Shown here piece after piece: positions 3,857 through 30,131 of a stretch of 42,134 nt of DNA; positions within the stretch are counted from its first letter, which is position 1, and each line of letters opens with the position of its first letter. A program made the position numbers and the translations under genes. The notes under the pieces were generated by a model. That model was not told the DNA's origin. It ran no database searches and worked only from the letters and a program-made list of their open reading frames with translations. This DNA is from Patescibacteria group bacterium (GTDB lineage: Bacteria; Patescibacteriota; Gracilibacteria; UM-FILTER-43-11). Location of the stretch: NCBI GenBank assembly GCA_018813295.1, contig JAHJBZ010000075.1, positions 1-42,134 on the forward strand, given 5' to 3'.

Positions 3857-3902
3857 AAAAAATAAATTAATTGATAAAACAATACTTTTTGATGCTGTCA
3901 AT

Positions 3903-3930
3903 ATTTTATCATATACTGTAAATATGTCAA
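3903..3930 (-). promoter_or_regulatory. Predicted promoter of Cys-rich member 1
   Basis: Minus strand TTGACA (3930-3925), 16 nt, TAAAAT (3908-3903); TGTCAATA occurs twice (3896-3903, 3925-3932). Confidence 0.55.
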
Positions 3931-3973
3931 TACAACAGATATTAATAAATCTTAAAAAAGGTATCTTTTTGGC

Positions 3974-4023
3974 TTGCAATAAGCATTTTAGTGTGATAGA
4001 ATAAGTGTAGAAACATTTCTACA
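3974..4023 (+). promoter_or_regulatory. Predicted promoter and operator-like palindrome of the first trmB-like gene
   Basis: TTGCAA (3974-3979), 17 nt, TAGAAT (3997-4002); TGTAGAAA-CA-TTTCTACA (4006-4023) between -10 and start codon. Confidence 0.5.
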
Positions 4024-4027
4024 ACAT

Positions 4028-7139: not shown

Positions 7140-8827
7140 TAATAGGCTTCTTTTAAATAACAATCCTCACAATAAACCTTCTCCTGTCTATCAGGCGAGT
7201 AAGTAGTTTGAATTATTTTCTGACAGCTATCGCACTTCCCCCCATAAAGATGACGAGGGTTACGACGATGAAAGCGATCCAAATGACGCTGATCGGGAGA
7301 TCTGCGCGGGATAGGAAGATTCTGATCACGATAAAACTTTAATTCTTGAGAAATAATCCTAAAAGGTTTTCCCGTAACCTCACATACAATGGCCCAATCT
7401 AAAATATCATCCGGAATGTCTTTGATGTTATCCGGTAACCGATTTGCGGGAATTGTTTTATCAACTTTCGGCAGTGGTGGTTCATAATCATCCCACTTAA
7501 ATCCTTTTATAAGTGCTTCTTCTTTTTCAAGAGGATAATACATTTGCGCTGAAGTTTTGTTGTAACCAAAAAGTGAAATACTAGAGGAGAAAAAATTTCC
7601 CCACTCTCCTGTAGACTGCATATGTTCAATGATTTTAGAAACAAGTCCTTCATATTCCTCTTTTGAATATTGTTTATTTAAAATGCAATAAGTTTTTTGC
7701 TGCATATTTACACATCCAAAACAGTTTTTTGATCTTTCCATATACCAGCAATAAATCAAATCAGCAGAACTGACGTGACAGTTGTCACAAAAAAGTAAAT
7801 GATAGCTATTTTCACCGCTTATCGTACATTCATAAGACTGCTGAAGATTCAGACCATATTGATAAATATCATAAACATTCTTAGCACCTGTTACCACTTG
7901 ATATAAATATTTCCCATTTTCAACATCTTCACAATCAAAGCTCGAATGAACATCCTTACAATTATTCAGATAATTTCCTGAACAATTTTGTAAATTATGC
8001 CCCTGAAATTCCTTAAAAGGTACATTTTTTTCGATTTCCCGTCTCTCATCCTTATATTTTTGATACTGACTATAATCCCCTAGATCTATTTCAGACATAT
8101 GCTTTTCATATTCTTCTTTGGAAAGTTGTTCATTCTTATAACAATATTCTTTTTCACGCAATCCCACACAGAGAAAACAATTCTTGCAACCAATACAATC
8201 TCGAAGGAATGCACTTGAATGACAGTTTATACAATCCTGACATCCTTTTAAGCCATAGCTCTTATGAACGTAAATTGAATCGTAACAAAGTTCACATTGA
8301 AGGTTATAAAAACCATCCACACAAAAGATATTTTTCTTAAAACCATACCCGTAATAACAATCTTCACAAAAATCGGCATGCATAATCAAATAACAATTTT
8401 TGCATGAGCCAGCATAATGTATGTATTCTGAATTTTGAATAGTGCCTTGAGTATTAAGCGCTAAAGTCGGCACACTTTTTTTGAGCTCAAGGAGCTGCTC
8501 GAAAAAAGGACGAGAGAAATCAAAATCCCTGCCATAATCAATTGGATTCCATTTATCGCTATGCCAACATTCACGACAGTAAATTGGTTGATTGTTATGC
8601 GGAGGTTGCTCAGTTAATGTCCTTTTTTTACACATTCCACACTCACCAGAATACAAGTGTCTTTCGTTACAAAAAGAGAGCCGTCGTTGCTGCCTGCAAT
8701 CCGGACATAAAGTTGGTTCTGGAATTAAATACTTTTTACCGTTAAACTCCGGACTCACCATTTCATAAAACTTGCGGTCCTGATCTGTGACTTCAAACCC
8801 TACATTGCATTGTTTGCAGTTTTTCAT
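7139..8827 (-). CDS. Cys-rich array family protein, member 3
   Basis: 562 aa; MKNCKQCNVGFEVTDQDRKFYE...; stop overlaps the start of member 2 (TAATG), suggesting translational coupling. Confidence 0.9.
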   Translation of the reverse strand: MKNCKQCNVGFEVTDQDRKFYEMVSPEFNGKKYLIPEPTLCPDCRQQRRLSFCNERHLYSGECGMCKKRTLTEQPPHNNQPIYCRECWHSDKWNPIDYGRDFDFSRPFFEQLLELKKSVPTLALNTQGTIQNSEYIHYAGSCKNCYLIMHADFCEDCYYGYGFKKNIFCVDGFYNLQCELCYDSIYVHKSYGLKGCQDCINCHSSAFLRDCIGCKNCFLCVGLREKEYCYKNEQLSKEEYEKHMSEIDLGDYSQYQKYKDERREIEKNVPFKEFQGHNLQNCSGNYLNNCKDVHSSFDCEDVENGKYLYQVVTGAKNVYDIYQYGLNLQQSYECTISGENSYHLLFCDNCHVSSADLIYCWYMERSKNCFGCVNMQQKTYCILNKQYSKEEYEGLVSKIIEHMQSTGEWGNFFSSSISLFGYNKTSAQMYYPLEKEEALIKGFKWDDYEPPLPKVDKTIPANRLPDNIKDIPDDILDWAIVCEVTGKPFRIISQELKFYRDQNLPIPRRSPDQRHLDRFHRRNPRHLYGGKCDSCQKIIQTTYSPDRQEKVYCEDCYLKEAY

Positions 8828-8910: not shown

Positions 8911-10560
8911 TTAATAAACTTCCTTATGGTAACACGCTTCACAATAAATTTTCTCCGGTCTTTCAGGGGCATAAGTCGTTTTAATATTAGCACCACATTT
9001 ACCACACTTCCTATCAAACAATCTACGTGGTGTCCGTTTAGCCATCCTATCTAAATGACGTTGGTCGGGAGAGCGGTGCGGAACTGGTAAAAAATGATTA
9101 CGGTAAAAACGTAATTCCTGAGGAATAATTTTAAATGGCCGTCCATTCACCTCATCAACAATAGCCCAGTTCGTGACATCATCTGGTATTTCAGTAATAC
9201 TATCCGGTAAGCGATCTGCTGGAATACTTTTTGTGGCCTCTGGTGGTGGTGCCTTATAATCCTGCCACTTAAAATCAGATTTTTGAGCCTGCTCTTTCGT
9301 TAATGGAAAATATTCCTGAGCAACTGTTTCGTTGTAACCAAAAGGGCTGAGATTTGCTGGAAAAAATTGACCCCATTCCCCTGTCTTCTTCATATGCTCT
9401 ACGATTTTGGACTTTAGATCTTCGTACTCTTCCTTCGAATATTGTTTGTTTAAAATGCAGTACTCTTTATGGGTTAATCCATCGCAAGCAAACAAGTGTT
9501 TGGAGTGATTTGTTTGATCGCAGTAAAAAATATCATGACAATAATGACTGGCCATGCTAAAAGCCGAGTGCGTCATATTTAATGTGCTTATTAGTTCGAC
9601 AGATAATTCCGGTTTATATAAGGAATAATTTAAATCCACACAATCCTTTGCATCCAAAACGTCGTAGAGATACTTGGAATCTTCCGCATTAGTTACATTG
9701 AATCCAAATTGCACGTTTTTACAATCTTTTAAATTGTTACCAGTGCAATTTTCGCAGTTTACCTGATAACTATCCCTAAAAATTGCGTTTACCGGAAGGT
9801 GCTCCTTCCACTTTTCTATAGCAGACTGGAGAAGGGTGTATGATCCACTTAAAATTTCATTCCATTTTTTCTCAAACTCTTCTTTCGAATGAGGTTTGTT
9901 AAAAATGTAGTACTCTTTATTCCGTAAATTGTAAGAAAAGAGACAATTCTTGCAACCAATTAGGTCATAAACAAAAGCACTATCGGATGTATTGTTGCAA
10001 TACTGACCATATTTAACGTTGTGACACTCATAACAGTTAATGGATTCATAGCAAAGCCTGGAATTATAAACAAAAGTAGAATCAACAGTGTCTTTAGAAT
10101 ATTTGACGAATAAATTGTAATAACAATCCTCGTTCGCCTCTCCGGCAATATCCAAATAACAATTCCTGTCATCTCCACAGTAGTTACAGAACTCACTATT
10201 CTCACAATTAACTATATCCAAATTCATTCGAGGAACTTCTCTCTGTAATTCTTCAAACTGTTCAAAAAATGGACGAGAAAAATCAAAATCACGTCCGAAG
10301 TCCAAAGGATTCCAGTTATCGCTATACCATTCGGTAGAAAGATAAACTTTATAAGGTCTACCTGGAGCATATAAAGAAATCATAGACTTACCAGAGAGAT
10401 CCGACTTATCACGATAAAAAGATCTGTCATTTCGGTAGGCCATACGCCGCTTATTGCGACAGTCGGGACATAGCGTTGGTTCGGGCACAGCAAGTTGGCC
10501 GTAAATCTCTTTATCGGACTGCGTGATATCAAAGCCAGTGTTGCAGTTTTTACAATTCAT
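8911..10560 (-). CDS. Cys-rich array family protein, member 4
   Basis: 549 aa; MNCKNCNTGFDITQSDKEIYGQLAVPEPTLCPDCRNKRRMAYRNDRSFY...; ends CGKCGANIKTTYAPERPEKIYCEACYHKEVY. Confidence 0.9.
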   Translation of the reverse strand: MNCKNCNTGFDITQSDKEIYGQLAVPEPTLCPDCRNKRRMAYRNDRSFYRDKSDLSGKSMISLYAPGRPYKVYLSTEWYSDNWNPLDFGRDFDFSRPFFEQFEELQREVPRMNLDIVNCENSEFCNYCGDDRNCYLDIAGEANEDCYYNLFVKYSKDTVDSTFVYNSRLCYESINCYECHNVKYGQYCNNTSDSAFVYDLIGCKNCLFSYNLRNKEYYIFNKPHSKEEFEKKWNEILSGSYTLLQSAIEKWKEHLPVNAIFRDSYQVNCENCTGNNLKDCKNVQFGFNVTNAEDSKYLYDVLDAKDCVDLNYSLYKPELSVELISTLNMTHSAFSMASHYCHDIFYCDQTNHSKHLFACDGLTHKEYCILNKQYSKEEYEDLKSKIVEHMKKTGEWGQFFPANLSPFGYNETVAQEYFPLTKEQAQKSDFKWQDYKAPPPEATKSIPADRLPDSITEIPDDVTNWAIVDEVNGRPFKIIPQELRFYRNHFLPVPHRSPDQRHLDRMAKRTPRRLFDRKCGKCGANIKTTYAPERPEKIYCEACYHKEVY

Positions 10561-10643: not shown

Positions 10644-12284
10644 TTAATATACAGCCTTAAAATAACACTCCTCACAAAATACTTTCTCCGGATGATCAGG
10701 GCCGTAAGTAGTTTTAATCGCAGTTTGGCATTCATCGCACTTACGATCATATAACTTGCGAGAATTTAAAAGGGCAACACGATTTTTATGACGTTCTTTT
10801 GGAGACAGATGTGGAATTGGTAATCCTTTTTTTCTATAAAACTGAAGCTCTTGTGGGACAATTTTAAACGGCTTACCGCTAAGATCAGATTCAAGTGCCC
10901 AATACAAAATATCATCCGGAACGTCCTTGATATCATCTGGCAAACGACGAGCTGGAATTGTTTTGGTGGTATCAGGTGGTGGCGTTTCATAATCAGACCA
11001 GTTCCAACCACGTTTTAAAACCTCATCACGAGTCAAAGGATAAAATTCTTGAGCTTTAGTTTCGTTGTAACCAAAGGGAGAAAGTTTAAATGGAAAAAAC
11101 TCACCATATTCACCCGTTTTATTCATATGTTCCTTAATTTTCGGTACTAACTGACGATATTCATCCTGAGAATACTGCTTATTCAAAATGCAGTATTTAT
11201 GGCTTTTTAGCCCCACACACCCAAATGAGAAACTACTATTTTGGCAATTGTCGCAGTATGCCATGTTATCGGAGTGATACGTAAGATTGCAGAACTTTCC
11301 AAAGCTCAAATCAACAATACCCTGTGTTTCATATAAAAATTCCCCCAAAGTTCGAGTTACATCATATCCATCTTTTACACTTTTGGACTCATAGATATAA
11401 CGCGCATCTTCCACGTCTTCAACATTAAAAGCAAACTTCGCATTTTTGGAATTTATAATATAACTACCAGTACAATTCTGAGTATTAAGCATCCAATTTG
11501 CATTCTTTGGTAATGAAGCTTTTAAATCTTCATACTTCTTTTTAAAGTCAGCGAAAAATTTAGGATCGGTTTTTAACTTTTTAATTGTACTCAAGCACTC
11601 TTCTTTGGAAGCGGGTTGATTTAAAATATGATTTTTACGATTACGGATAGAAACACAAGCAACTAAACGTTGAGAACCTCGACAGTCAAAGCAAAGAAAA
11701 GATTCTGCAACATTCGAACATAATTCGAGATAATTTGAATGGGAACAGTTGTGTGAAAACACGCACTCATAACACATCTCCATATGGGTACAAAAAAGAA
11801 GATCAATACAATCTCTTGATTGCATAACCCAATCACTATAGTGAACATCCTCACAGTCGACCAGTGAACTAGCCATAAAACAATTGCGATTCTTGGAACT
11901 ATGAACAGTAAAATCACTGTTTTCACTTTGCGTATTGAAGATGGCAATACGTGGAACCCCTGCTCGCATCTCGCCGTATTGCTCAAAAAACGGCCGACTA
12001 AAATCAAAGTCCACTCCATATTCCAATGGATCAAATTTATCGCTCCAAAAACAATCCGAACAAAGAACCGGAATAGTTTTATCGGGTGAATAAATGGAAA
12101 TTATATTTTTTTCGCAAATATGACAGATGTTTTTGTAATAATTCTGATCATTCCTAAAGGCCATACGCCTTTGGTTCCTGCAATCCGGACACAATGTAGG
12201 CGCAGGCACGTTCATTTTCTTATGAACCATCTCATCTGCCTTGGTAATACCAAACTGTGATTTGCATTGTCTGCAATCAGTCAC
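10644..12284 (-). CDS. Cys-rich array family protein, member 5
   Basis: Open from ATG 12311; GTG at 12284 gives (V)TDCRQCKSQFGITKADE, the family-consistent N-terminus; ends CDECQTAIKTTYGPDHPEKVFCEECYFKAVY. Confidence 0.8.
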   Translation of the reverse strand: MTDCRQCKSQFGITKADEMVHKKMNVPAPTLCPDCRNQRRMAFRNDQNYYKNICHICEKNIISIYSPDKTIPVLCSDCFWSDKFDPLEYGVDFDFSRPFFEQYGEMRAGVPRIAIFNTQSENSDFTVHSSKNRNCFMASSLVDCEDVHYSDWVMQSRDCIDLLFCTHMEMCYECVFSHNCSHSNYLELCSNVAESFLCFDCRGSQRLVACVSIRNRKNHILNQPASKEECLSTIKKLKTDPKFFADFKKKYEDLKASLPKNANWMLNTQNCTGSYIINSKNAKFAFNVEDVEDARYIYESKSVKDGYDVTRTLGEFLYETQGIVDLSFGKFCNLTYHSDNMAYCDNCQNSSFSFGCVGLKSHKYCILNKQYSQDEYRQLVPKIKEHMNKTGEYGEFFPFKLSPFGYNETKAQEFYPLTRDEVLKRGWNWSDYETPPPDTTKTIPARRLPDDIKDVPDDILYWALESDLSGKPFKIVPQELQFYRKKGLPIPHLSPKERHKNRVALLNSRKLYDRKCDECQTAIKTTYGPDHPEKVFCEECYFKAVY

Positions 12285-12306
12285 TGAAAAATGATAAATG
12301 ATAAAT

Positions 12307-12339
12307 CTCATCTAATCCCGCTAAGCGGGATTAGATGAG
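12307..12339. repeat. 33-bp hairpin spanning a stop codon and an upstream start codon
   Basis: CTCATCTAATCCCGCT-A-AGCGGGATTAGATGAG, 16-bp arms, 1-nt centre; includes the stop of the ATPase gene (12331-12333). Confidence 0.85.
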
Positions 12340-14574
12340 CGGCTCCTCAAATTCCTGCTCCATATCCGGCGCGGTATTATCTTCGGTAAATTCACCTGCC
12401 TCATCCCACTTAGAGAGAAGCTTTTCGACATCAGCTTTAGGTGTGCAGTAATTCTTACGTGAATGCTTGATGATTTTATCAGTAAAATCATTAGTTACAG
12501 GTGGGCAATCTATTGTTCTTCCGGAAAACGCCTCACGGATTTCACCATTTACAGACATCTTGGTATAAAACTCACGAACACCTAAGTTTATAATATCTCG
12601 TTCTTGGAATATCGGCGTATATTCATTCGCAAGCACCTTTGCATCTTCCGCACCAACACGAAAACTCACAATTGTACCTATATTACCGAATACCGTTTTT
12701 TGTACGATATTCATCAATTGCCCCATATACTGATGAGCAAGAGTAAGACTCAGGCGATACTTGCGCGCTTCGGAAATAATTTCATCAAATGTTTCCGTCG
12801 CAAAGTTCTGGAACTCATCTATATATAGGTAGAAATCTTTTCTGTTCTCCTCTTTTACACTCGCGCGCTGCATGGCGGCCTGATACATTTTTGTAATAAC
12901 CATAGCACCAAGTATCTGGGAATTCTCTTCTCCAAGCAAACCTTTCGATACTTTCATAAGTAAAATCTTCTGCCCATCCATCATCTCGCGAATATTGAAT
13001 TTATTTTGAGGCTGGCCAATTATGTTTCTAATCATATTTGTAGAAACAAGTTGCCCCACCTTATTTAAAAGCGGAGTAATTGCCTCGGCATCGAACTTTT
13101 CACTCCATGCAGCAAATTCAGACACCCAGAAGTTTTTAACAACGGAATCCTGGATACGTGAAATAATTTTCTGACGATAGTTTTTATCCGTCAGCATCTT
13201 TAAAATAGAAAGAATTGTTGTATTCGGACTATCAAGCAAAGCCAGGGTTGTATAACGAAGCACATGTTCCAAACGATCAGACCAGTTATCACCAAAAAGC
13301 TTCTTAAAAATGTCAATAAATCCAATTGTAAGCTGCATTTTATACTCCTCTCCAACATTTTCCAGTGGATTAAACGCAATTGGATTTTCTACATCGGATG
13401 GATCAAAAAGAACTACATCCTTCACGCGTTCCTCAGGAATATATTGCATTATATTGTCAATAAGATCACCATGCGGATCGAGCACTCCAACTCCATGCCC
13501 AGCTTCCAAGTCTTCTTTTATTAAAAGCTCAAGGAACTTGGATTTACCAGAACCTGACTTACCAACTGTATATAAATGACGTCTGCGATCATCACGCCTT
13601 ACGCCAAATTCCACAAAATTATTGTGATAATTAGTAGTACCAAAAAACGATGTCTCAGGGGTTCCGCGTTTAGGCAAGTCTTGAGGTGGCTCGTGTTTTT
13701 TTGCTAAAACATGAACGATATGCGGAACGTGATCGGCGTTGGGATAATGATAAAGTGTGGCAATTTCCTTTGCACCCATTTTATAAGCTCCGGAAACTGA
13801 ACGTTTTTTATAAAGTTCCGCAAATTTAGGGGAAGTGGTTGTTTTTTCTGCCGTAAATTCCTGAATATCAGTTGAATTAAATTGGTAGAAACTATTTTTT
13901 ACAGCTTCTAACTTCCTGCTAGCAAGTTGAGGGTCTTCAGCAACATATGCGCATCTAATAACAACGTCAAAAGGTTCCTGTTTGTATTTTTCTTGAGCCA
14001 ATTTAGCACGTTTGGCTTTAATTGTATCTTCACCCTTACTCTTCGCCCTAAACCAATCACGTATATGAAAAATCTGACGGATTCTTGCAAAACGCATTGC
14101 CCAGCCACGTTTAAAATGATAACCAGCTGTTTCATTAACCGGATTTACAACAATTTGTACCCACACCTGCTCATCTGAAGAAATCTTTGAAATAACTGAA
14201 AAAAGGCCTGACTGAGAATCTTCAGTAAATGTATCATAATCCTTGAGGGCATAGATATCAAAAAACTTAAGTTTTAAAGTAGTACCGGCAATAGCATTTT
14301 TACCAGGCATAAACCCGGAAGTATAATCCTTAGTCGGCTTAATTTCAGCATCGGGAAAAGTTGAATAAATCAGACCCTCAAGTGTCTCCAATAAATCATC
14401 TGGAACTACAACGTAACAGTATGTGTACTGCTCATAACCAAAAAACTCCAATGAAATAGGTTTATCTTTAACCGTATTCTGAAAATTCACCAAAACCTGA
14501 CGGAACAAGTCTTCTTTTTTCGGATTTTCCGCCTCACCCTGAGGAACTATGACATGAAGATAATGGTATTGCAT
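12331..14574 (-). CDS. TraG/TraD/VirB4-type DNA-translocase-like ATPase (type IV secretion DNA-binding domain)
   Basis: ORF to 14607, likely start MQYHYLHVIVPQGE; Walker A TVGKSGSGKSKFLELL, GHGVGVLDPHGDLID, DVVLFDPSDVENPIAFNPLE, Walker B FYLYIDEFQNFATETFDEIISEARKYRLSLTLAHQYMGQL. Confidence 0.85.
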   Translation of the reverse strand: MQYHYLHVIVPQGEAENPKKEDLFRQVLVNFQNTVKDKPISLEFFGYEQYTYCYVVVPDDLLETLEGLIYSTFPDAEIKPTKDYTSGFMPGKNAIAGTTLKLKFFDIYALKDYDTFTEDSQSGLFSVISKISSDEQVWVQIVVNPVNETAGYHFKRGWAMRFARIRQIFHIRDWFRAKSKGEDTIKAKRAKLAQEKYKQEPFDVVIRCAYVAEDPQLASRKLEAVKNSFYQFNSTDIQEFTAEKTTTSPKFAELYKKRSVSGAYKMGAKEIATLYHYPNADHVPHIVHVLAKKHEPPQDLPKRGTPETSFFGTTNYHNNFVEFGVRRDDRRRHLYTVGKSGSGKSKFLELLIKEDLEAGHGVGVLDPHGDLIDNIMQYIPEERVKDVVLFDPSDVENPIAFNPLENVGEEYKMQLTIGFIDIFKKLFGDNWSDRLEHVLRYTTLALLDSPNTTILSILKMLTDKNYRQKIISRIQDSVVKNFWVSEFAAWSEKFDAEAITPLLNKVGQLVSTNMIRNIIGQPQNKFNIREMMDGQKILLMKVSKGLLGEENSQILGAMVITKMYQAAMQRASVKEENRKDFYLYIDEFQNFATETFDEIISEARKYRLSLTLAHQYMGQLMNIVQKTVFGNIGTIVSFRVGAEDAKVLANEYTPIFQERDIINLGVREFYTKMSVNGEIREAFSGRTIDCPPVTNDFTDKIIKHSRKNYCTPKADVEKLLSKWDEAGEFTEDNTAPDMEQEFEEPLI

Positions 14575-14648
14575 TTTTTTATAGTAACTTAGAGTTAATT
14601 TTACCAAGAAAACCGCTCATTTGGCTAGTTGATTTACAAAATGCAAGA

Positions 14649-14693: not shown

Positions 14694-16382
14694 TTAATAC
14701 ACTTCTTTCAAATAACATTTTTCACAATAAACCTTCTCTGGGCAATCTGACGAGTAAGTCGTTTTAATCGGAGTACCACATTTACCACACTTCCGATCAT
14801 AAATCGTACGAGGATTTCGAAGTTCCATCCTGTAGCGATAACGCTCATCTGGATGTAAATGTGGAACTGGCAAATTATTTTCACGATAATACTTTAATTC
14901 TTGTGCGATAATTTTATATGGACGATCTGTAGCCTCGCATTTAATAGCCCAATTTAAAACATCGTCAGGGATGTCATCTGTTCGATCAGGTAGCCTGCTA
15001 GCTGGAATATTTTTTGTAGCTTTTGGCATCTCATCAACCTCATCTCTCCATTGCCATCCTTTTTTCAGAACCTCTTCCTTATTCAGGGGGTAAAAATCCT
15101 GAGCCATAGTCTCGTTATATGCAAAATGAGAAAAATCAGCAGGAAAAAAATCTCCCCACTCGCCATTCGCCTGCATATTTGCAATAATCTCAGCAACTTT
15201 TTTCTCATATTCTTCCGGTGAATACTGTTTATTCAAAATACAGTGCTTTTTGCGACGAACACCAGCACACCCAAATGAATTTAAAGTTGTATGACAAGAA
15301 AAAGAATAAAGAAGTTCATTGCTATTATCCCAACTAGAGATGCACATGAGTACACCATTGGCATTATTTCCAATTTCCAAGGAGTTATAACACTTTTCAT
15401 TGCCATAACCAAAGGCATACACATCCTGGCAATCTTTAGAATCGTTATACCATCCGCAAAATTTACAATCCTCTAAATTATTGCAATCAAAACAGTACGC
15501 GCAGTTTCTGGAATTAAAAATATGATCGCTAGCTACTACATTTTCATTATTCTGACCATCGTAATAAAGACGTGTGTGACCTTTAATAAATTCCTGGAAG
15601 TCAGATTTTAATTTTTTAACAACTTCATGCGAAGTAAAATCAATTTCTGACATTTTCTTTTCATATTCTTCTTTCGAAAGTTCCTCATTTCGAAATACAT
15701 ACTCTTTATTTCGAAGCCCATAAGAAAAGAAACAATTCCTCGCACCATGACAGTCATATAAAAACCTGGAATCACTGCAATCCTTTGCATTCTGGCACCA
15801 GGCCAAACTGTAACTTCGATCACAATCAACGCATTCATAAAGTTTTTCCGAATCCATTACATGAATACAATCCACACAATTCTTATTTCGCGGCATAAAA
15901 ATTCCATAATAACAATCTTCATTATGACCGGAGGAAGAAATTAAATAACAGTTACGATTACGTGTTGTACTAGTGGTATATTCACAATTTTCCGCATTAT
16001 TATTTTGATGGGCAGCAAGTTTTGGAACCTTAAGAAGAAGTTCTTTATACTGCTCAAAAAATGGACGACCAGGATCATATTCCTGGCCATACTCTAGGCC
16101 ATCCCATTTATCACTCCACCAGCAATCATAACAATAAACAGGATATAATTTGTCAGGAGAGTAGATAGAAATAGTAGATTTATTACACAAATCACAATCC
16201 CTCTTATAAAGCTTGCGTTCATTTTTCCAAAGTAATCGTAGTTGTTCACGACAAACGGGACACATAGTGGGCTCTGGGATGGAAAACTTCTTGCCATCAA
16301 AAACCGGACTTATTTTATCGTAAAAATCCAGATCTTTCGGGGCAACCTCAAACTGTGCTGAACATTGTTTACAGGTTTTCAT
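14694..16382 (-). CDS. Cys-rich array family protein, member 6
   Basis: 562 aa; MKTCKQCSAQFEVAPKDLDFYDKISPVFDGKKFSIPEPTMCPVCREQLRLLWKNERKLYKRDCDLCNKSTISIYSPDKLYPVYCYDCWWSDKW. Confidence 0.9.
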   Translation of the reverse strand: MKTCKQCSAQFEVAPKDLDFYDKISPVFDGKKFSIPEPTMCPVCREQLRLLWKNERKLYKRDCDLCNKSTISIYSPDKLYPVYCYDCWWSDKWDGLEYGQEYDPGRPFFEQYKELLLKVPKLAAHQNNNAENCEYTTSTTRNRNCYLISSSGHNEDCYYGIFMPRNKNCVDCIHVMDSEKLYECVDCDRSYSLAWCQNAKDCSDSRFLYDCHGARNCFFSYGLRNKEYVFRNEELSKEEYEKKMSEIDFTSHEVVKKLKSDFQEFIKGHTRLYYDGQNNENVVASDHIFNSRNCAYCFDCNNLEDCKFCGWYNDSKDCQDVYAFGYGNEKCYNSLEIGNNANGVLMCISSWDNSNELLYSFSCHTTLNSFGCAGVRRKKHCILNKQYSPEEYEKKVAEIIANMQANGEWGDFFPADFSHFAYNETMAQDFYPLNKEEVLKKGWQWRDEVDEMPKATKNIPASRLPDRTDDIPDDVLNWAIKCEATDRPYKIIAQELKYYRENNLPVPHLHPDERYRYRMELRNPRTIYDRKCGKCGTPIKTTYSSDCPEKVYCEKCYLKEVY

Positions 16383-16465: not shown

Positions 16466-18103
16466 TTAATAAACAGATTTCAAATAACACGCTTCACAGT
16501 ATACCGTCTCCGGCCTATCCGGTGAATAAGTAGTTTTGATGTCGGACTGGCATTTAGCGCATTTGCGGTCAAAAAGATGCCGAGGATTACGTAATGTCAT
16601 TCGATCCTCCTGACGTTGATCAAAACAATTTCGAGGTATAGGTAAATTATAAGCACGATAAAACTTAAGTTCCTGAGGAATGATTTTGTAGTGCTTACCA
16701 GATTTTTCACAAATCAAAACTTGATCAGAAATATCATCGGAAACATCTTTAATATCATCCGGTATTTGATAATCAGATCCCTTTTTCTGACTAATTTCAT
16801 CCTTTTCTTTCCATCTCCACCCATTAGACTCAATTTCTTCCTTAGATAAAGGTATATATTCCTGTGCCATTGTTTCGTTGTAGGCAAAAGAAGTTAAATC
16901 CGGTGGAAAAAACTCACCCCATTCACCAGTCTGTTTCATATACCCAATAATGCGATTCTTTAAATCTTCATATTCCTCTTTTGAATACTGTTTATTCAAA
17001 ATACAATATTTTTTACCCTTTAACCCTGCACACGCAAAACAATCTTTGCAGGAGTAGCAGTTGTCTGCATAGTAAATATTTGCTGAATCGTGAACGTTAT
17101 GACAACTCATTAATTTATAACCAGATACAGCAACAACATTAATTGACCATTCTGTTTTAGATGGAGAATAATTGGCATCATAACAATTTAAAAAGCTCTC
17201 TGCAGTTGCTAAATATCGACTGTCCTCACAATTTTTTGCATCATAGGAATCAAAAACATTTTTACAATTATAAAGGTAGTCTCCCGTTACATTTTCACAA
17301 TTAAAACCATGGAAATGTTTTACTATTTCTTTCCCAACTAATTCTTTAACACGACTTTGAGCAATTTCGATTAACTTAATATTCCCCTGATTGAATTCAG
17401 ACATCTTTTTTTCATAATCCTCTTTTGAATAAGGCTTATTAAAAATACAGTGCTCCTTGTTTTTTAAACCAACACAGCCAAAACAATTCCTACAATTATT
17501 ACAATTAACTAAAAAACGGGAATCAGAACAGTTGTCGCAACCAGTACAAAAAGAGAGACCATTGCACTGAACACAATCAGTACACTCATAACAAAATTCA
17601 GATCGATAGGTATAAAGACAATCGAAACAATTTTTAGACTGCCAAACAATATGTCCATAATAACAATCTTCATTATCCACATTTCCAAATACCATATAAC
17701 AATTCCTACTACCGAATGAAAAATTACAATAATCCGTATTCTCACACTGAGTGTTTGAAATGTTCATACGCGGAGCAGAATTAAACAATTCTTTAAGTTG
17801 CTCAAAAAATGGACGTGAGAAATCAAAGTCCCGACCACATGCAAGATCATCCCATTCATCACCCCACCAAGCATGCATATCATAAACGGGAAACTTTGCA
17901 TCCTCGTCGTACATGGAAATAATGGACTTGCCTGTTAAATCGCATTTTCGATGATATAAGTTGAAAAAATTCCTATACATCAAACGCTGCTGCATTCTGC
18001 ACACAGGACACAATTCTGGTTCAGGAATATCGATCTTTTCATAAAACTTCAGATCTTGTGGGGTAACTTCAAAACTTATGTTGCATTGCTTGCAGTTTTT
18101 CAT
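16466..18103 (-). CDS. Cys-rich array family protein, member 7
   Basis: 545 aa; MKNCKQCNISFEVTPQDLKFYEKI...; clear AGGAGG Shine-Dalgarno upstream on the minus strand. Confidence 0.9.
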   Translation of the reverse strand: MKNCKQCNISFEVTPQDLKFYEKIDIPEPELCPVCRMQQRLMYRNFFNLYHRKCDLTGKSIISMYDEDAKFPVYDMHAWWGDEWDDLACGRDFDFSRPFFEQLKELFNSAPRMNISNTQCENTDYCNFSFGSRNCYMVFGNVDNEDCYYGHIVWQSKNCFDCLYTYRSEFCYECTDCVQCNGLSFCTGCDNCSDSRFLVNCNNCRNCFGCVGLKNKEHCIFNKPYSKEDYEKKMSEFNQGNIKLIEIAQSRVKELVGKEIVKHFHGFNCENVTGDYLYNCKNVFDSYDAKNCEDSRYLATAESFLNCYDANYSPSKTEWSINVVAVSGYKLMSCHNVHDSANIYYADNCYSCKDCFACAGLKGKKYCILNKQYSKEEYEDLKNRIIGYMKQTGEWGEFFPPDLTSFAYNETMAQEYIPLSKEEIESNGWRWKEKDEISQKKGSDYQIPDDIKDVSDDISDQVLICEKSGKHYKIIPQELKFYRAYNLPIPRNCFDQRQEDRMTLRNPRHLFDRKCAKCQSDIKTTYSPDRPETVYCEACYLKSVY

Positions 18104-18135
18104 TATTATCGCCTCCTAGTATTAAATTGAATTTT

Positions 18136-18708
18136 ATGAATAAAAAAGAATCTAAGGCTATTATACCAGTAGAAAGCATCGAAAGAACAATTTATGTCAT
18201 TCGTGATCATAAAGTTATACTTGATCAGGACTTGGCTATTCTTTATGGGGTTCCAACCAAACGATTAAATGAGCAAGTTCGCAGAAACATCAACCGTTTT
18301 CCTGAAGATTTTTCATTCCAGCTAACAAAAGGAGAATGGGATTTTTTGAGGTGCCAAATTGGCACCTCAAACGAAAATATTTTGAAGTCGCAAATTGCGA
18401 CTTCAAGTTGGGGTGGTCGTCGCAAACTACCATTTGTTTTTACAGAACACGGAGCTCTAATGGCAGCTAATATTCTAAGGAGCAAACGCGCAATCAGTGT
18501 AAGCATCGAAATAGTACGTGCATTTATTAGACTACGCCAAGCACTCGCATCACATGAAGTACTTACAAAAGAATTGCAAGAAATAAAAGAATTTGTATTA
18601 AAGAATTCCAATAAAAACAATCGTGAATTTCAGCATATTTGGAAAGCAATTGAAAAATTAACTGACAAACCAAAAGAACAACAAAAAATTGGTTTTAATT
18701 TAGGCTAA
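18136..18708 (+). CDS. ORF6N-domain protein (paralog of 4876-5475)
   Basis: ORF opens at TTG 18127; ATG at 18136 preferred; TIYVIRDHKVILDQDLAILYGVPTKRLNEQVRRNINRFPEDFSFQLTKGEW...WGGRRKLPFVFTEHGALMAANILRS. Confidence 0.9.
   Translation: MNKKESKAIIPVESIERTIYVIRDHKVILDQDLAILYGVPTKRLNEQVRRNINRFPEDFSFQLTKGEWDFLRCQIGTSNENILKSQIATSSWGGRRKLPFVFTEHGALMAANILRSKRAISVSIEIVRAFIRLRQALASHEVLTKELQEIKEFVLKNSNKNNREFQHIWKAIEKLTDKPKEQQKIGFNLG
18345..18371. repeat. Intragenic palindrome 1 of ORF6N gene 2
   Basis: TTTGAGGTGCCA-AAT-TGGCACCTCAAA, perfect 12-bp arms. Confidence 0.95.
18381..18407. repeat. Intragenic palindrome 2 of ORF6N gene 2
   Basis: TTTGAAGTCGCA-AAT-TGCGACTTCAAG, 11 of 12 arm pairs. Confidence 0.9.
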
Positions 18709-20504: not shown

Positions 20505-22157
20505 TTAATAAACTTCCTTCAAATAACACTGTTCGCAATAAATTTTTTCAGGACGATCAGGTGAGTAAGTAGTTTTTATATCTATAGTACATTTGCCACA
20601 CTTCCTATCATAAATATCCCGCCTGTTTCTAATATCCATTCGGGCAATCCTTCTGCACTGAAAACATTGGTGAGGTAGAGGATAACCCTGTTTTTTGTAA
20701 AACTTCAATTCCTGCTCAATGATTTTATAATTCTTTTTACAGCTCTCGCATGCAATCACTTCATTTATAATTGTATCCGGAACATCATTAATATTATCGG
20801 GAATTTCCTTCAAAGTTTCCTGGCCATAAGTGCCAGGCAAATCATCTTGCCACTGCCAACCGTTTTTTAAAACCTCTTCTTTCGTTTTTGGGTACCACAA
20901 TTGTGCAGTAGTTTCGTTATAAGCTGACTGACTATATTTAATAGGTAAAAACTCACCCCACTCTCCATCGGCTTTCATCTTCTCAATAATCTTTTTCTCT
21001 AAATCTTTATATTCGGATTCGGAGTATTGCTTATTTAGTATGCAAAATTTACTTCTCTGAAGTCCAAAACATCCAAAACAATTTTTACTGGTATAGCAAT
21101 CAATGCAATAAGTTAAATCTGACACCTGCCAAAGACACAGATAACAAAAACGAATATTGTAAGCATTTGTTCCGATCATTGCACCTTCATAACAAAGCTC
21201 AGCCTCAACACCATATTGATAGATATCATAACAATACTTAACGCCCAATTGCATCTGGCTACAGTATTTTGAGTGTTCCATATCGCTACAATCAAAACAA
21301 TACATAGCATCATGCGCATTGAATAAATGGTCTCCAAAGCTGTCTTCACAATTGATCATCCGGAGCGCCTTCTTTGGCATTTTTAAAAAGAAATCCGTTG
21401 CCAGTTTTTTTAACTTTTGAGTTCCAGAATAAGTATTTACATTAAATTGCGCCAAAAATTTTTCATAATCCTCCTCGGTATAAGGTTTGTTATTAATGTA
21501 ATAACGTTTATTTTTCAAACCCACACACCCAAAACAATTCTTACAATCAGTGCAGTCTTGTAAAAAGTAACTATCAGCACAATTTGTACAATCCTGAGAC
21601 CAGGCAAGTTTATAACATTTCTTAACGTCGACACATTCATAACATAATTCAGAGTCATGACAGTAATGCACATCAACACAATTCAAAGCCTTCTTTACGC
21701 CATAACCGTAATAGCAATTTTCAGCAAATGTAGCATGAAAAAGCATGTAACAATTTCTTTCCTGACCAGCATGATGAGTATATTCGCTATTTTCATTACT
21801 AATATCGGTTGATACACAGCAATGAGGAACTTTTAACTCCAGTTCATGAAGCTGATCGAATATGGAACGATTCAAATCAAGATCCTGAGCATATGCATTA
21901 GACGTCCATTTATCGCTCCACCAGCAATCAACACAATAAACAGGCCGAGGATCTTTTGAATTAAGTTGCGAAATTACCCTTTTGCCGCAAAGCTGGCACT
22001 TGTTTGGATAAAGCATCATCTCATTACACCACGCCATACGCCTCATCTCACGACAATCCGGACACCAGGTTGGTTCAGGCACATCCATCTTATTATAAAA
22101 CTCCCGATCTTTATCGGTAATCTCGAAACTCTGTGAACATTGTTTACAATTTTTCAT
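20505..22157 (-). CDS. Cys-rich array family protein, member 9
   Basis: 550 aa with 45 Cys by hand count; all CxxC pairs of both terminal modules retained (CKQC, CPDC, CQLC, CVDC; CESC, CFQC, CGKC, CEQC). Confidence 0.9.
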   Translation of the reverse strand: MKNCKQCSQSFEITDKDREFYNKMDVPEPTWCPDCREMRRMAWCNEMMLYPNKCQLCGKRVISQLNSKDPRPVYCVDCWWSDKWTSNAYAQDLDLNRSIFDQLHELELKVPHCCVSTDISNENSEYTHHAGQERNCYMLFHATFAENCYYGYGVKKALNCVDVHYCHDSELCYECVDVKKCYKLAWSQDCTNCADSYFLQDCTDCKNCFGCVGLKNKRYYINNKPYTEEDYEKFLAQFNVNTYSGTQKLKKLATDFFLKMPKKALRMINCEDSFGDHLFNAHDAMYCFDCSDMEHSKYCSQMQLGVKYCYDIYQYGVEAELCYEGAMIGTNAYNIRFCYLCLWQVSDLTYCIDCYTSKNCFGCFGLQRSKFCILNKQYSESEYKDLEKKIIEKMKADGEWGEFLPIKYSQSAYNETTAQLWYPKTKEEVLKNGWQWQDDLPGTYGQETLKEIPDNINDVPDTIINEVIACESCKKNYKIIEQELKFYKKQGYPLPHQCFQCRRIARMDIRNRRDIYDRKCGKCTIDIKTTYSPDRPEKIYCEQCYLKEVY

Positions 22158-22243: not shown

Positions 22244-23920
22244 TTAGTAGACCAACTCGAGATAGCACTGCTCACAGTATACCTTCTCAGATCTATCAGG
22301 TGAATATGTAGTTTTAATGTCCGCACTACATTTATCGCATTTCCTATCCCAAAGATTACGAGGATTACGTAACGCCATCCTGTCTAAATGACGCTGGTCA
22401 GGACATCGGCGTGGGATTGGAAGATTAAATTGTTTATAGAAATTAAGTTCCTGAGGAATAATTTTATAATTCTTGCCGGTAACCTCACAAACCAAAATAG
22501 CCTTACAAATATCATCTTGGGTGTCTTCGATACGATCTGGTATTTCGTATACAGGACCTTTGTATGATTTAATCTCAATGTCTTTTTGCCATCTCCAACC
22601 CTTCTTTTTAACCTCTTCTTCGGTCATAGGATAGTGAAGGTTGGCAATAGTTTCGTTGTATGCAAACGGAGAACATTCCATTGGGAAAAATTCACCCCAC
22701 TCTCCTGTCCTCTTCATATGTTCAATGATTTTCGGTACAAGCTCTTCGTACTGTTCTTTTGTATATTGCTTATTTAAAATACAGTACTTTTTCTTACGAA
22801 GAGAAATGCATCCAAAACAATTTTGATCACCAAGCATTAGATCGCAATAATATAAATCGGAATGTGTTTCCCATGAATTCATACAAAAAGCACATTTATT
22901 CAATTGATAAGCAGAGCTAACCATCTCATAACAAAGCTCGCTTTTTCCTCCAAAAAAATCCCAATCATAACAATCTTTCAACCCACCGCCTCCTATGTAA
23001 GAACAATATTTACAATCCTCTAAATCGTTAGAATCAAAACAGTACTCAGAATTTCTAGAGTCTTTTAGATAATTACCCAAACAATTTTCACAATTTAAAT
23101 TTTCCAAAAATTTTCGAGGGAATTTCAAAAACAATTCCTGAGCTTTCTTTTTCGCTGCCTGAAAAACAGCATAAGACGAGAAAATCTCTTTCCTCTTTTG
23201 TTCAAATTCCTCTTTGGATACCTTTTCATTAAAAATGCAGTACTCCGCATTGGTTAAGTTGATACAAAACATGCAGTTTTTACTGCTTTGCATGTTATAG
23301 CAATACGCAAGACCGGATGAATTCTCTACCTTTTGACAGTAAAAACACTCATGGCTTTTGTAGACATCAGTACATTCATAACAGAATTTACAATCATCCA
23401 TGAAATCAAAATCAAAACAGTTAAAATTCCTGAGAGCAGTTCTTCCATAAGCACATTTTTCATTATAGTCCGCTGTATATATGAGGTAAGAATCTTTATT
23501 GCCAAGAGCGATATTTGTGTAAGCACTGTTTTCACTATTAATAACAGAAAGTGACATGCGTGGAACTTTTAACTGAAGCTCTTTGAATTGCTCGAAAAAA
23601 GGACGTGAAAAATCAAAATCCTGACCATAGTCGATTGGATCCCATTTATCACTCCACCATTCCTCCTGATCGTAAACGGTATAAGGAGATTCAGGTGCAA
23701 ACATAGTTACCATTTGTTTACCGGTAAGATCACATTTGCGATGATAAAGACTGCGCTCATTACGAAAGGACATACGACGTTGTGATCTACATGGCGGACA
23801 GAGTGTAGGTTCCGGAATGGGAAACTTCTTTCCGCCTATTTCAGGACTAACTCTTTCATAGAAATCACGATCTTGATCTGTGACTTCAAAGGAATTGTTA
23901 CATTGTTTGCAAGTTTTCAT
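22244..23920 (-). CDS. Cys-rich array family protein, member 10
   Basis: 558 aa; MKTCKQCNNSFEVTDQDRDFYERVSPEIGGKKFPIPEPTLCPPCRSQRRMSFRNERSLYHRKCDLTGK...; ends CDKCSADIKTTYSPDRSEKVYCEQCYLELVY. Confidence 0.9.
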   Translation of the reverse strand: MKTCKQCNNSFEVTDQDRDFYERVSPEIGGKKFPIPEPTLCPPCRSQRRMSFRNERSLYHRKCDLTGKQMVTMFAPESPYTVYDQEEWWSDKWDPIDYGQDFDFSRPFFEQFKELQLKVPRMSLSVINSENSAYTNIALGNKDSYLIYTADYNEKCAYGRTALRNFNCFDFDFMDDCKFCYECTDVYKSHECFYCQKVENSSGLAYCYNMQSSKNCMFCINLTNAEYCIFNEKVSKEEFEQKRKEIFSSYAVFQAAKKKAQELFLKFPRKFLENLNCENCLGNYLKDSRNSEYCFDSNDLEDCKYCSYIGGGGLKDCYDWDFFGGKSELCYEMVSSAYQLNKCAFCMNSWETHSDLYYCDLMLGDQNCFGCISLRKKKYCILNKQYTKEQYEELVPKIIEHMKRTGEWGEFFPMECSPFAYNETIANLHYPMTEEEVKKKGWRWQKDIEIKSYKGPVYEIPDRIEDTQDDICKAILVCEVTGKNYKIIPQELNFYKQFNLPIPRRCPDQRHLDRMALRNPRNLWDRKCDKCSADIKTTYSPDRSEKVYCEQCYLELVY

Positions 23921-24098: not shown

Positions 24099-24246
24099 AT
24101 GATAATCGAGCAGCCTTTGCTGGCTCCATGGTTATACCTGGAGTCAGCAAAGCACATTAATACCCATGATAATCGAGCAGCCTTTGCTGGCTCCATGGTT
24201 ATACCTGGAGTCAGCAAAGCACATTAATACCCATGATAATCGAGCA
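24099..24246 (+). repeat. 67-bp tandem duplication (2 copies plus 14 bp of a third) carrying a hairpin; the third partial copy is the trmB-like start
   Basis: ATGATAATCGAGCA at 24099, 24166 and 24233; hairpin CTTTGCTGGCTCCA...TGGAGTCAGCAAAG at 24115-24152 and 24182-24219. Confidence 0.95.
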
Positions 24247-24994
24247 AGAATTAACAAATTTAGGCCTTACAAAGGAAGAATCAAAGGTATATCTGTCTAT
24301 ACTCGAGTTAGGCGGATCTTTTGTCAGCGCCATAGCCAGGCGTGCTGGGGTTAATAGATCCACGTGCTACCACACATTGGATAATCTGGTTAAAAAAGGA
24401 CTTGTTAGCTCTTATCAAAAAGGCAAAGTTCTGCATTTTACAGCAGAAGATCCAAACCGCTTTATGCAAATGGCAGAGGAGCGCGTAGAAAAAACAAAAG
24501 ACCTTATCCCCCAGCTTATTTCACTTTCCAACACCCTGGCCTTCAAACCAAAGATTAGGTTTTACGAAGGCATTGAGGGGATTAAAAGTATTTTTGAAGA
24601 CATTTTAACCACGAAAGAAGAAGTACTCGGTTACACAAGTATCAAAGATGTGGGAAAACTTATCCCCGACTACTTTAAACGCTATTGCCATAAGAAAGTA
24701 AAAAACGGTATTAAAACCAGGTACATTACCCCGGCAACAGAAGAAGGCGTAGATATGATCGATGAGTATTATCCAAAAAAATATGACCCAAATTTACTGG
24801 AAGTATTAATGGTTAACCCCAAGGAATTTAACTTTCAAAATGAAATTGCAATCTATGGAAACAAAGTCGCCATTATCTCGTTAAATCCGGACGAATTAAT
24901 CGGCTTAATCATTGAAAGCAAAACCTTTTCAGATAGTATGAAGTCATTTTTTGACCTCGCATGGCTAGGTGCAACTGCATTCGTAGCCCGATAG
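24233..24994 (+). CDS. TrmB-family HTH transcriptional regulator (paralog of 4028-4789)
   Basis: 253 aa; MIIEQELTNLGLTKEESKVYLSILELGGSFVSAIARRAGVNRSTCYHTLDNLVKKGLVSS; extensive identity to the first copy. Confidence 0.85.
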   Translation: MIIEQELTNLGLTKEESKVYLSILELGGSFVSAIARRAGVNRSTCYHTLDNLVKKGLVSSYQKGKVLHFTAEDPNRFMQMAEERVEKTKDLIPQLISLSNTLAFKPKIRFYEGIEGIKSIFEDILTTKEEVLGYTSIKDVGKLIPDYFKRYCHKKVKNGIKTRYITPATEEGVDMIDEYYPKKYDPNLLEVLMVNPKEFNFQNEIAIYGNKVAIISLNPDELIGLIIESKTFSDSMKSFFDLAWLGATAFVAR

Positions 24995-26729: not shown

Positions 26730-26999
26730 CTAATTTACTTCATTATAATAACACTCCTCACAATAAATAATGTAAGGAGAATTTTTTGGATATGTGCTTT
26801 CCAGATCTTTGTCGCACTTATCACATTTACGCTGATACAATTTACGCTCATTCCTTAAAGATTTTCGTCTGTTCCTGCGGCATTCATGGCAGTTAGAAGG
26901 TGTGGGAAGTTTCTTTTTTTCATAAAAAGACTGTTCCTGGGGAATAATTAAAAATTCTTTTTTACATCCCTGACATTTTTTTGTGACACTATCCTTCAT
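26730..26999 (-). CDS. Stand-alone zinc-ribbon module of the Cys-rich family
   Basis: 89 aa; CQGCKKEFLIIPQEQSFYEKKKLPTPSNCHECRRNRRKSLRNERKLYQRKCDKCDKDLESTYPKNSPYIIYCEECYYNEVN matches the terminal modules. Confidence 0.8.
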   Translation of the reverse strand: MKDSVTKKCQGCKKEFLIIPQEQSFYEKKKLPTPSNCHECRRNRRKSLRNERKLYQRKCDKCDKDLESTYPKNSPYIIYCEECYYNEVN

Positions 27000-27009: not shown

Positions 27010-28257
27010 TTAACCAATATTTTGCCAATAACAATCTAAACAATAAACAATATGTGGGTTGTCTGGCGAATAAGTTGTAATAAGAGGATTTTTGCATCCC
27101 CCACATTCCCTTTTATACATTTTACGTTCATTTCTTAGATCGATCCTTTGTTCAGCTCTGCAATTTGGACAATAAATTGGAAGTATAATATCCATTTTTT
27201 TATAAAAACCAATCTCGTCTTCGGTAATTTCAAAATTATCTCCACATAAAGTACAACTGCGACCCAATTGATCGTCAGACACACTAACAACATCTCTATC
27301 TAGATCTTTAAAAAGAAGATCGTAGAGTGCATAAATACCTTTTTCTCTCAAAATATCGATAATTTCTTTTGTTGTCTTTTTATAAAAATCCTCATCTACT
27401 TTTTGATTTAAAATATAATATCCATCTTCTTTGCTCTTTATATAATGACAACCAAAAAGATTCTTGGATTCAAAACAATTAGTGCAATATTGACTATCTT
27501 TTAAATTCCCACACCAATATAAATGCTTACAATTAAAGAGGTAGTGGGAGTAAGCTATGTCATAACATAAATCCATACCAGTAGGAATTGGACCACAATC
27601 CCAACTGTCTTTTGTACCCATATCCAAATTAGCCTGATAAATATAACCGCTATCCTCTGTGTGGCGGGTATCAAAACATCTATAACAATTTTTACTATGA
27701 TAAATATAATCACCAGTACAGTTTTGGGTATCGAATTGATGAACAAATTTACGAGGAATTTCTCTCTTTAATACTTCTAATTTTTTATCAATTTCCTCTA
27801 AAATTTTTGGATTGGAGAAATCTAAAGTTTCCAAAGCTTTTTCATAATCTTCCTGTGAATGTTTTTTATTGAATATGTAATACTCTTTATCCCTAAGCCC
27901 AACACATCCGATGCAATGCTTACATCTTCTCAAATCATATGAAAAATGAATATCCTCGCAGTTCACGGAATCTTGGCAGTAATTAGAGTCATAACAATTA
28001 TTACAATCAACACATTCATAACAAAGTTCACACTGCTCACAAAAAGCGCAATCGGTGCAGTTGGTAAGTGCACGACTATCTTCACAATAATAAGCATCAC
28101 GACAATTACCGGAGTTAAAACACATGTAAGAATCTTTGGATACAGTAATAATGTCTCCATAATCACAATTTTCACTCCCCCTAGACCAAGAACCACACTG
28201 AGGTGATTTCAAATACAAATCCCGAAAATCCTGTATGAAGTTTTCTGAATTAATCAA
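27010..28257 (-). CDS. N-terminally truncated Cys-rich family member
   Basis: 415 aa, apparent TTG start right after an in-frame TAG (28261-28263); has B, B' and C-terminal module with all four Cys pairs (CTLC, CPNC, CGGC, CLDC) but no N-terminal module. Confidence 0.75.
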   Translation of the reverse strand: MINSENFIQDFRDLYLKSPQCGSWSRGSENCDYGDIITVSKDSYMCFNSGNCRDAYYCEDSRALTNCTDCAFCEQCELCYECVDCNNCYDSNYCQDSVNCEDIHFSYDLRRCKHCIGCVGLRDKEYYIFNKKHSQEDYEKALETLDFSNPKILEEIDKKLEVLKREIPRKFVHQFDTQNCTGDYIYHSKNCYRCFDTRHTEDSGYIYQANLDMGTKDSWDCGPIPTGMDLCYDIAYSHYLFNCKHLYWCGNLKDSQYCTNCFESKNLFGCHYIKSKEDGYYILNQKVDEDFYKKTTKEIIDILREKGIYALYDLLFKDLDRDVVSVSDDQLGRSCTLCGDNFEITEDEIGFYKKMDIILPIYCPNCRAEQRIDLRNERKMYKRECGGCKNPLITTYSPDNPHIVYCLDCYWQNIG

Positions 28258-28477: not shown

Positions 28478-29119
28478 TTAGTTTGCTGACTCTAAGACGA
28501 CAACCTTTGAGTTATCCTCAGGAAGCTCACTCTTTTTAACAACAAAAGAATCAACCGGCTCAGTATTCTTTGCAGCCATAACGGACAAAAACTCCTCAAG
28601 ACTTGCAAGGTTACGATTACTTCCCTCGGTGTGGTATGTCATTGGAATAATAATGCGAGGTTCTATTTGCTCAATAATCTCTTTTGCCTTTTTAGCATCA
28701 ACGGATTCAGTTTTACCAGCAGGAACAAATAAAACATCAACATCCCCTACTTGTTCTAATTGCTCAGGAGTAAGCTTTGTTCCCTGTGCTCCCAAATGAC
28801 AAAAACGAATACCATTGAAGTTGATTGTAAAAATAACATTCTCAAGCTGCTCTTTGTCTTCTTTTGTATTATGGAAAGAATGAATACCTTTAAAATGAAC
28901 TCCTAAAGTCTCATACTCCCCTGGCCAATTAAGAACCATAGGGTTGCCATCAACTACATCTTTAGCACTATGAGCTTTGCTATCAAAACTAATAGTAACA
29001 ACATTTGCGGTTAATTTTGGCATTTTTAAACCAATGCTCTCATCGTACGGATCTGTAACAATTACAGTTTTTCCATCTTTAATAGAAAAGCAGGCATGGC
29101 CGTGGAACTTGATTTCCAT
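28478..29119 (-). CDS. MBL-fold (UlaG-like) metal-dependent hydrolase
   Basis: 213 aa; MEIKFHGHACFSIKDGKTVIVTDPYDESIG...NWPGEYE...DVLFVPAGKTESVDAKKAKEIIEQIEPRIIIPMTYHTEG. Confidence 0.8.
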   Translation of the reverse strand: MEIKFHGHACFSIKDGKTVIVTDPYDESIGLKMPKLTANVVTISFDSKAHSAKDVVDGNPMVLNWPGEYETLGVHFKGIHSFHNTKEDKEQLENVIFTINFNGIRFCHLGAQGTKLTPEQLEQVGDVDVLFVPAGKTESVDAKKAKEIIEQIEPRIIIPMTYHTEGSNRNLASLEEFLSVMAAKNTEPVDSFVVKKSELPEDNSKVVVLESAN

Positions 29120-29227
29120 AATTTTGTTTAAGTTAAAAGACCGAGAGATATTCTAGCACACTCTCTTGATAACTAAAAACAAATTCGTAACCCACTAGGA
29201 ACCAGGAACTAGACACTAGGCACAAAA

Positions 29228-30076: not shown

Positions 30077-30131
30077 TTTGTTTTTATTTAATTAATTTGA
30101 AATTTAAAAATTTGAAAATTTTGTTGTTTTG

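Follow-up and report, generated by a model that had tools for sequence, protein, structure and literature searches.

Tandem arrays of proteins with two predicted cysteine-core solenoids and zinc modules at both ends are linked to a VirD4-like ATPase in Gracilibacteria

Results

Gene content of the locus

The DNA analysed here (the window) is a stretch of 42,134 nucleotides from a genome of the Gracilibacteria, a class of the Patescibacteria. It carries ten tandem full-length paralogs on the minus strand, between positions 2180 and 23920, which share pairwise identities of 35-48%. The protein followed in most detail, p7, is encoded by a minus-strand open reading frame at 16466-18103, and the sequences quoted for it in an earlier, sequence-only reading were all found in it, letter for letter. 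The genes considered below are as follows.

2180-3856, minus strand: p1, paralog
4028-4789, plus strand: second TrmB-family regulator, divergent from p1 (Pfam scan)
5472-7139, minus strand: p2, paralog
7139-8827, minus strand: p3, paralog
8911-10560, minus strand: p4, paralog
10644-12311, minus strand: p5, paralog
12331-14607, minus strand: VirD4/T4CP-like ATPase, 758 aa, a member of the linked subfamily, with no predicted N-terminal membrane anchor
14694-16382, minus strand: p6, paralog
16466-18103, minus strand: p7, entire protein, 545 aa
18743-20395, minus strand: p8, paralog
20505-22157, minus strand: p9, paralog
22244-23920, minus strand: p10, paralog that heads the array, divergent from a TrmB gene
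24233-24994, plus strand: TrmB-family regulator, divergent from p10 (assigned through the Pfam match of the 4028-4789 paralog, which is 50% identical to it)
26730-26999, minus strand: q2, stand-alone two-finger zinc module, 89 aa (PF13451 match; AlphaFold2 pLDDT 94.9)
27010-28257, minus strand: q1, B-B'-A' form lacking the N-terminal module and retaining 8/8 module Cys

The 1.53-Mb genome holds about 20 copies of the family, fragments included. One of these, on contig C2, encodes 510 aa and lacks the C-terminal finger described below, though the genome has the linked ATPase. The survey of related loci comprised 76 genome loci, selected by similarity to the window family from among the matches listed, and a TrmB-family regulator occurs in at least 22-23 of them, in most cases transcribed divergently from the gene that heads the array. 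An extreme expansion is seen in another genome of the class (G291), with 47 candidate family matches in approximately 0.9 Mb. TGA-recoded Gracilibacteria also carry the family (L034, L067 and L075), and the internal stops in these three loci are all TGA. A full-length member (L081, 5998-7656) lies on a contig labelled Candidatus Micrarchaeota, a placement that reflects a binning error or else gene transfer into an archaeon. No paper describing the solenoid family was found in the literature searched, and none of the family and structure libraries searched covers the whole architecture.

Several other features of the window were recorded. Two head-to-tail 67-bp units, each containing a palindrome, occupy 24099-24237, just upstream of and into the start of the TrmB gene; genome-wide, the palindrome core has about 27 copies, many of them arranged like REP doublets, as oppositely oriented pairs some 50 bp apart. 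Two ORF6N-type genes (4876-5475 and 18127-18708, plus strand) interrupt the array and run opposite to it, and the one at 18127 strongly matches the PADLOC candidate defence family PDC-S05 (E=1.7e-54). At 30132-41738 (minus strand) lie consecutive genes for large repetitive proteins that look exported, and two of these proteins (31900-37116 and 37207-40707) end in dockerin-like motifs. Genes homologous to those at 28478-31834 stand ahead of the same array in L022, L043 and L054. A phage or plasmid origin of the locus was rejected, as searches of phage and plasmid collections gave no match and a single partial match to a viral contig was obtained elsewhere.

Symmetry and predicted fold of p7

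It had been proposed that p7 has an internal A-B-B'-A' symmetry, in which the two ends and the two halves of the middle are each related. To examine the protein at the level of profiles, homologues were gathered from public genomes and 110 were aligned. The end modules (residues 1-90 and 452-545) align with a profile-profile probability of 99.8% and a score of 146.7 over 78 ungapped columns, and the central halves (residues 108-236 and 255-385) with a probability of 99.9% and a score of 203.7 over 127 columns. Controls with column-shuffled profiles, including shuffles that preserved the three-residue phase, reached a maximum score of 18.6, and comparison of the N or C module with B or B' gave scores of only 10.7-16.3. 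Thus, the A-B-B'-A' architecture is secure.

The AlphaFold2 model of p7, built from the same 110-sequence alignment, has a mean pLDDT of 91.6 and a pTM of 0.89. From N to C terminus it displays a zinc module, a helix, a solenoid, a helical hinge, a second solenoid, a long capping helix, a linker and a zinc module. The earlier suggestion of a beta-solenoid capped by zinc modules is thus borne out by the prediction, which is a repetitive, two-lobed beta-solenoid with a zinc module at each end and not a single non-repetitive globular fold; the self-alignments, likewise, are highly significant. The segments of p7 are listed below.

17864-18103, minus strand: zinc module A, residues 1-80 (hhalign to the C-module, ligand conservation, model)
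17759-17863, minus strand: linker, residues 81-115, with a helix at 99-109 and the conserved motif DFDFSRPFFEQ..EL...VP
17435-17758, minus strand: beta-solenoid B, residues 116-223, nine 12-residue rungs with a Cys-lined core
17324-17434, minus strand: helical connector joining the two solenoids, residues 224-260, the least conserved segment (model)
16991-17323, minus strand: beta-solenoid B', residues 261-371, homologous to B, with less regular rungs
16721-16990, minus strand: capping helix and linker, residues 372-461, with the motifs KQYSKEEYE and GEWGEFFP
16469-16720, minus strand: zinc module A', residues 462-545 (hhalign, ligand conservation)

A Foldseek search of the p7 model against the PDB yielded nothing beyond weak resemblances to beta-helical enzymes (highest TM 0.12, rmsd >11 A), and one against viral models produced no convincing match. 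The model therefore supports the solenoid class of the predicted fold, while the whole protein resembles no solved structure.

The solenoid repeat and its cysteine core

The sequence-only reading had placed Cys/Asn-rich strings at a spacing of roughly 20 residues, and on this point it did not hold. Across the 110 homologues, the similarity autocorrelation of B has maxima at 12 and at all multiples of 3, and its value at 20 is negative, a result that rules out a repeat of about 20 residues; the peak at 12 is also present in B', although weaker than in B. Cysteine makes up 39.1% of the residues in one of the three phases of B, versus 0.4% in the other two, and the family as a whole has a mean Cys content of about 6.7%. 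The pattern in B is the one expected from rungs of 12 residues of which four face inward, and it is the Cys phase that would point inward.

A 12-residue Cys solenoid is known from the thermal hysteresis protein of Tenebrio molitor (1EZG/1L1I), and the rungs of the family are likewise 12 residues long. In the solved Tenebrio protein the inward positions are every third residue and are Cys-rich. When the family profile was compared with the PDB, 1EZG was the only solenoid reached, over 64 positions of equal length, at an E value of 0.6 that is not significant; thus, no homology is claimed and the likeness is an analogy of geometry only. The Tenebrio protein, in contrast with the family, consists of one 84-aa solenoid that is extracellular and disulfide-linked, and it has no zinc modules. 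Two phmmer queries of the PDB, using isolated B and the split B-B' protein, yielded nothing useful. Left-handed beta-helix (hexapeptide) and pentapeptide solenoids share the beta-solenoid architecture, and hexapeptide acyltransferases dominate the weak Foldseek list, but their rungs comprise 18 or 20 residues rather than 12. The best hexapeptide-type matches have TM values of 0.06-0.12 with an rmsd above 11 A and so do not constitute a structural match. A pentapeptide or hexapeptide solenoid was rejected, as p7 lacks any such Pfam match and has a Foldseek TM of about 0.1 to the hexapeptide enzymes.

The zinc end modules

The first half of the end module had been likened to zf_Tbcl zinc ribbons. 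The free-standing module q2 bears this out, as it passes the Pfam cut-off for PF13451 (33.6 bits versus 24). The second half of the module corresponds to a second, related finger, zf_Tbcl_2 (PF23477; TIGR04272, CxxC-x17-CxxC), and the module of the family would comprise two fingers in tandem, zf_Tbcl first and zf_Tbcl_2 second. Among 89 isolated modules, 43 match PF23477 and 24 match PF13451 at E<=0.001; p7 itself reaches 20.1 bits against a cut-off of 27 for PF23477, and none of its matches passes the cut-off. The AlphaFold2 model of q2 shows two hairpin-helix units for which Foldseek returned no solved structure, treble clefs included, at E<=0.001.

The two ends have not retained the same finger. 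At the N end the four Cys of finger 1 are conserved in 98, 85, 96 and 86% of sequences and those of finger 2 in 73, 14, 14 and 14%; at the C end the corresponding values are 96, 33, 60 and 33% for finger 1 and 99-100% at all four positions of finger 2. In p7, finger 1 of module A is intact (CKQC...CPVC) and finger 2 degenerate (CDLT...D..A), and in module A' finger 1 is mostly degenerate and finger 2 (CxxC...CxxC) is approximately 100% conserved. The end modules have thus degenerated in a complementary manner, with finger 1 kept at the N end and finger 2 at the C end, and most copies possess one full zinc site per end module, the first at the N end and the second at the C end. It is through these sites that the end modules would bind metal. 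The long proteins of the family differ from zf_Tbcl and zf_Tbcl_2 proteins in that their fingers are duplicated around a solenoid and are complementarily degenerate. The modules also differ in charge; the C-module is basic, with a mean net charge of about +7, and the N-module has a mean of +1.7 (-4 in p7). The solenoids are acidic.

Paralog lineages and the variable face

A tree built from 195 proteins places every one of the ten window paralogs in a lineage of its own, and all ten lineages have relatives in other genomes. The paralog lineages are therefore old, and recent tandem amplification is ruled out as the origin of the array, with the proviso that the loci were chosen by their similarity to the window family.

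Paralog-specific information was computed over eleven well-supported groups. In B, the rung positions {11,0,2,3} carry a mean of 0.73, versus 0.29 on the outward positions {5,6,8,9} (p=8e-8). It should be emphasized that the positions {11,0,2,3} were picked after B had been inspected; the same positions were then carried to B', where, transferred by alignment, they replicate the difference (0.72 versus 0.27, p=4e-7). The ends of the proteins hold little paralog-specific information (0.19-0.28). Paralog-specific residues thus form a stripe on one face of both solenoids, and this pattern is what a shared handle combined with a variable binding face would look like.

Linkage to a VirD4-like ATPase

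The ATPase encoded between p5 and p6 matches the Pfam families PF02534 (9.2e-11), PF10412 (9.4e-08) and PF12696 (2e-05), all above cut-off. The domains matched are T4SS-DNA_transf, TrwB_AAD_bind and TraG-D_C, and a VirD4-type ATPase domain is thus present. Among members of the linked subfamily, no hydrophobic 19-residue window was found in the first 300 residues, while the VirD4 paralog L130 has one. Judged by its sequence, the enzyme is predicted to have the motor domain of a coupling protein and to lack one of the defining features of that class, the N-terminal membrane anchor, and thus may not serve a secretion channel.

A VirD4-type ATPase is found in at least 18-19 of the 76 loci, usually directly downstream of family genes and on the same strand. 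In 17 of 20 family-bearing genomes the linked subfamily lies no more than 1.5 kb from a family gene; among the matches listed, none of the 55 other VirD4 homologues of the same 20 genomes is within that distance. With the subfamily defined by a score threshold (E <= 1e-180), and again among the matches listed, it was present in 30 of the 34 genomes of the class that carry the family and in 0 of the 36 that do not (70 class genomes; Fisher 8e-16). Three of the four exceptions are genomes that read through TGA, in each of which a diverged VirD4 is located beside family genes. The linkage indicates shared function or co-inheritance, and not a mechanism; indeed most copies of the family sit in tandem arrays and not directly beside the ATPase.

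The recoded genomes in which a diverged VirD4 adjoins the family are G319, G331 and G336. In the fourth exception, G303, no VirD4 is linked to the family, and its two family proteins both terminate immediately ahead of the C-terminal finger that is otherwise invariant. That the ATPase and the finger are missing together is suggestive, but this is a single genome, and the ATPase-bearing genome studied here also has a truncated copy, on contig C2. In G303 (locus L153) the truncated family genes alternate with repeat genes at 373-1617 and 3379-4395 (minus strand). The latter encode repeats of the type 'DELKGDKEVVMAAVSQ.G.AL.YAS', which we take to resemble DUF4116.

No T4SS channel gene was recognised among the open reading frames of the window. 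The genome contains a VirB4-like gene on another contig (C38:8978-10465), and VirB4 was ruled out as the linked partner because genomes that lack the family have VirB4-like genes as well.

Origin of the long form

Two loci encode the parts of the long form as separate genes. In L140, a B-B' gene (318 aa) and then a gene for a free module (110 aa) come after an ATPase of the linked subfamily. L139 has the reverse order, with the free module (98 aa) ahead of the B-B' gene (301 aa), and a VirD4-type gene lies one gene away from them. On the basis of these gene arrangements, the preferred reading of the long form is that a free module gene and a B-B' gene fused, an event that may have placed a module at both ends. 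In such a scheme it is the B-B' gene next to the ATPase that would have fused with the free module gene, an order of events that we infer. Apparent intermediates in the duplication and fusion of the module and the double solenoid thus persist in living genomes.

Discussion

The arrays described here encode what would be soluble rods, in each of which two homologous beta-solenoids are joined by a helical hinge and a two-finger zinc module sits at either end. Our tentative preference, which we regard as plausible rather than probable, is that they form a repertoire of soluble adaptors or cargo for the linked ATPase, in which the conserved ends dock and the variable faces select partners. A common handle for the soluble ATPase or, alternatively, for nucleic acid held by the ATPase would be provided by the ends that the paralogs share, and chiefly by the basic, invariant finger at the C terminus, and the variable stripe of the solenoids would give each paralog its own partner. 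The array, presumably expressed under the TrmB-type regulator, would then be a set of adaptors or cargoes acted on by one hexameric ATPase.

It could be argued that the proteins are instead scaffolds that bind nucleic acids and work with a DNA translocase of the HerA/VirD4 type, with the zinc module at either end holding on to DNA or RNA. The two-finger zinc modules, the basic charge of the C-module, the Pfam and NCBIfam matches of the ATPase to DNA-transfer families and the missing membrane anchor, which is compatible with a cytosolic DNA motor, are all consistent with this proposal. However, the N-module is close to neutral on average and negative in p7, the solenoids are acidic, and no relaxase or nuclease family is prominent among the recurring neighbours; we consider such a role unlikely.

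VirD4-type ATPases are the substrate receptors of type IV secretion systems, and the proteins could thus be effectors or cargo exported to a host or neighbouring cell through a patescibacterial T4SS, with the end module as the signal recognized by the VirD4-like protein. Many divergent paralogs share a conserved basic C-terminal module and lack an N-terminal signal sequence, the genome has a VirB4-like gene, and Patescibacteria are believed to rely on host cells (PMC12102498). The arrangement may be compared, from sequence features, with XVIPCD-type T4SS effectors, otherwise diverse proteins that are bound by VirD4 through a conserved terminal domain. Export is nevertheless a rather unlikely role, as the linked ATPase lacks a membrane anchor, VirB4-like genes are also found in genomes that do not have the family, and domain scans of the family proteins detected no toxin or enzyme domain.

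That the family is part of an anti-phage defence module appears improbable. ORF6N genes flank some copies, the one tested matching a PADLOC candidate family, and the ATPase weakly matches mad8 and HerA models, but among the matches listed ORF6N genes lie beside arrays in only 3 of the 76 loci, and no effector domain was recognised. The family proteins themselves match no PADLOC defence model, and a known defence system was rejected on this ground. A metallothionein-like store or buffer of thiol-binding metals, or of Cys itself, is very improbable despite the high Cys content and copy number, as the Cys are fixed in one phase of the solenoid core, the lineages keep group-specific outward residues that a store would not need, and the dedicated ATPase would be left without explanation.

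Large Cys-rich proteins have been reported previously in the same broad bacterial group. Those of Ca. Peribacter riflensis (PMC4736985) contain about 7% Cys and are encoded in a gene cluster, similar to the family, but they average 1,655 aa and have predicted signal peptides, whereas members of the family are approximately 550 aa long and begin with a zinc module in place of a signal peptide. The Peribacter proteins are thus a different class. A predicted 12-residue, Cys-core solenoid that would reside inside a bacterial cell is structurally interesting.

A 2025 survey of 2,918 Patescibacteria genomes counted 5,713 VirD4 homologues, of which only 148 are near virB4, and considered exaptation (PMC12102498). 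The linked ATPase shares with these coupling proteins its matches to T4SS-DNA_transf, TrwB_AAD_bind and TraG-D_C; in contrast with them, its subfamily appears to lack the N-terminal anchor and is tied to solenoid arrays and not to virB4. The arrays and the ATPase together look like an undescribed molecular system. That it is an ATPase system of the Gracilibacteria class in which up to 20 or more zinc-capped, Cys-core rods, alike at their ends and paralog-specific on their faces, serve as interchangeable adaptors or cargo for a dedicated soluble VirD4-type motor is a possibility that we advance with some doubt. This study provides one VirD4 subfamily with a specific partner, a large and ancient repertoire of unusual architecture. 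If the adaptor or cargo reading is true, the ATPase-solenoid system would account for some of the numerous orphan VirD4 homologues in Patescibacteria, and it raises the question of whether the motor binds the solenoids, and by which end, in bacteria whose dependence on their hosts is poorly understood.
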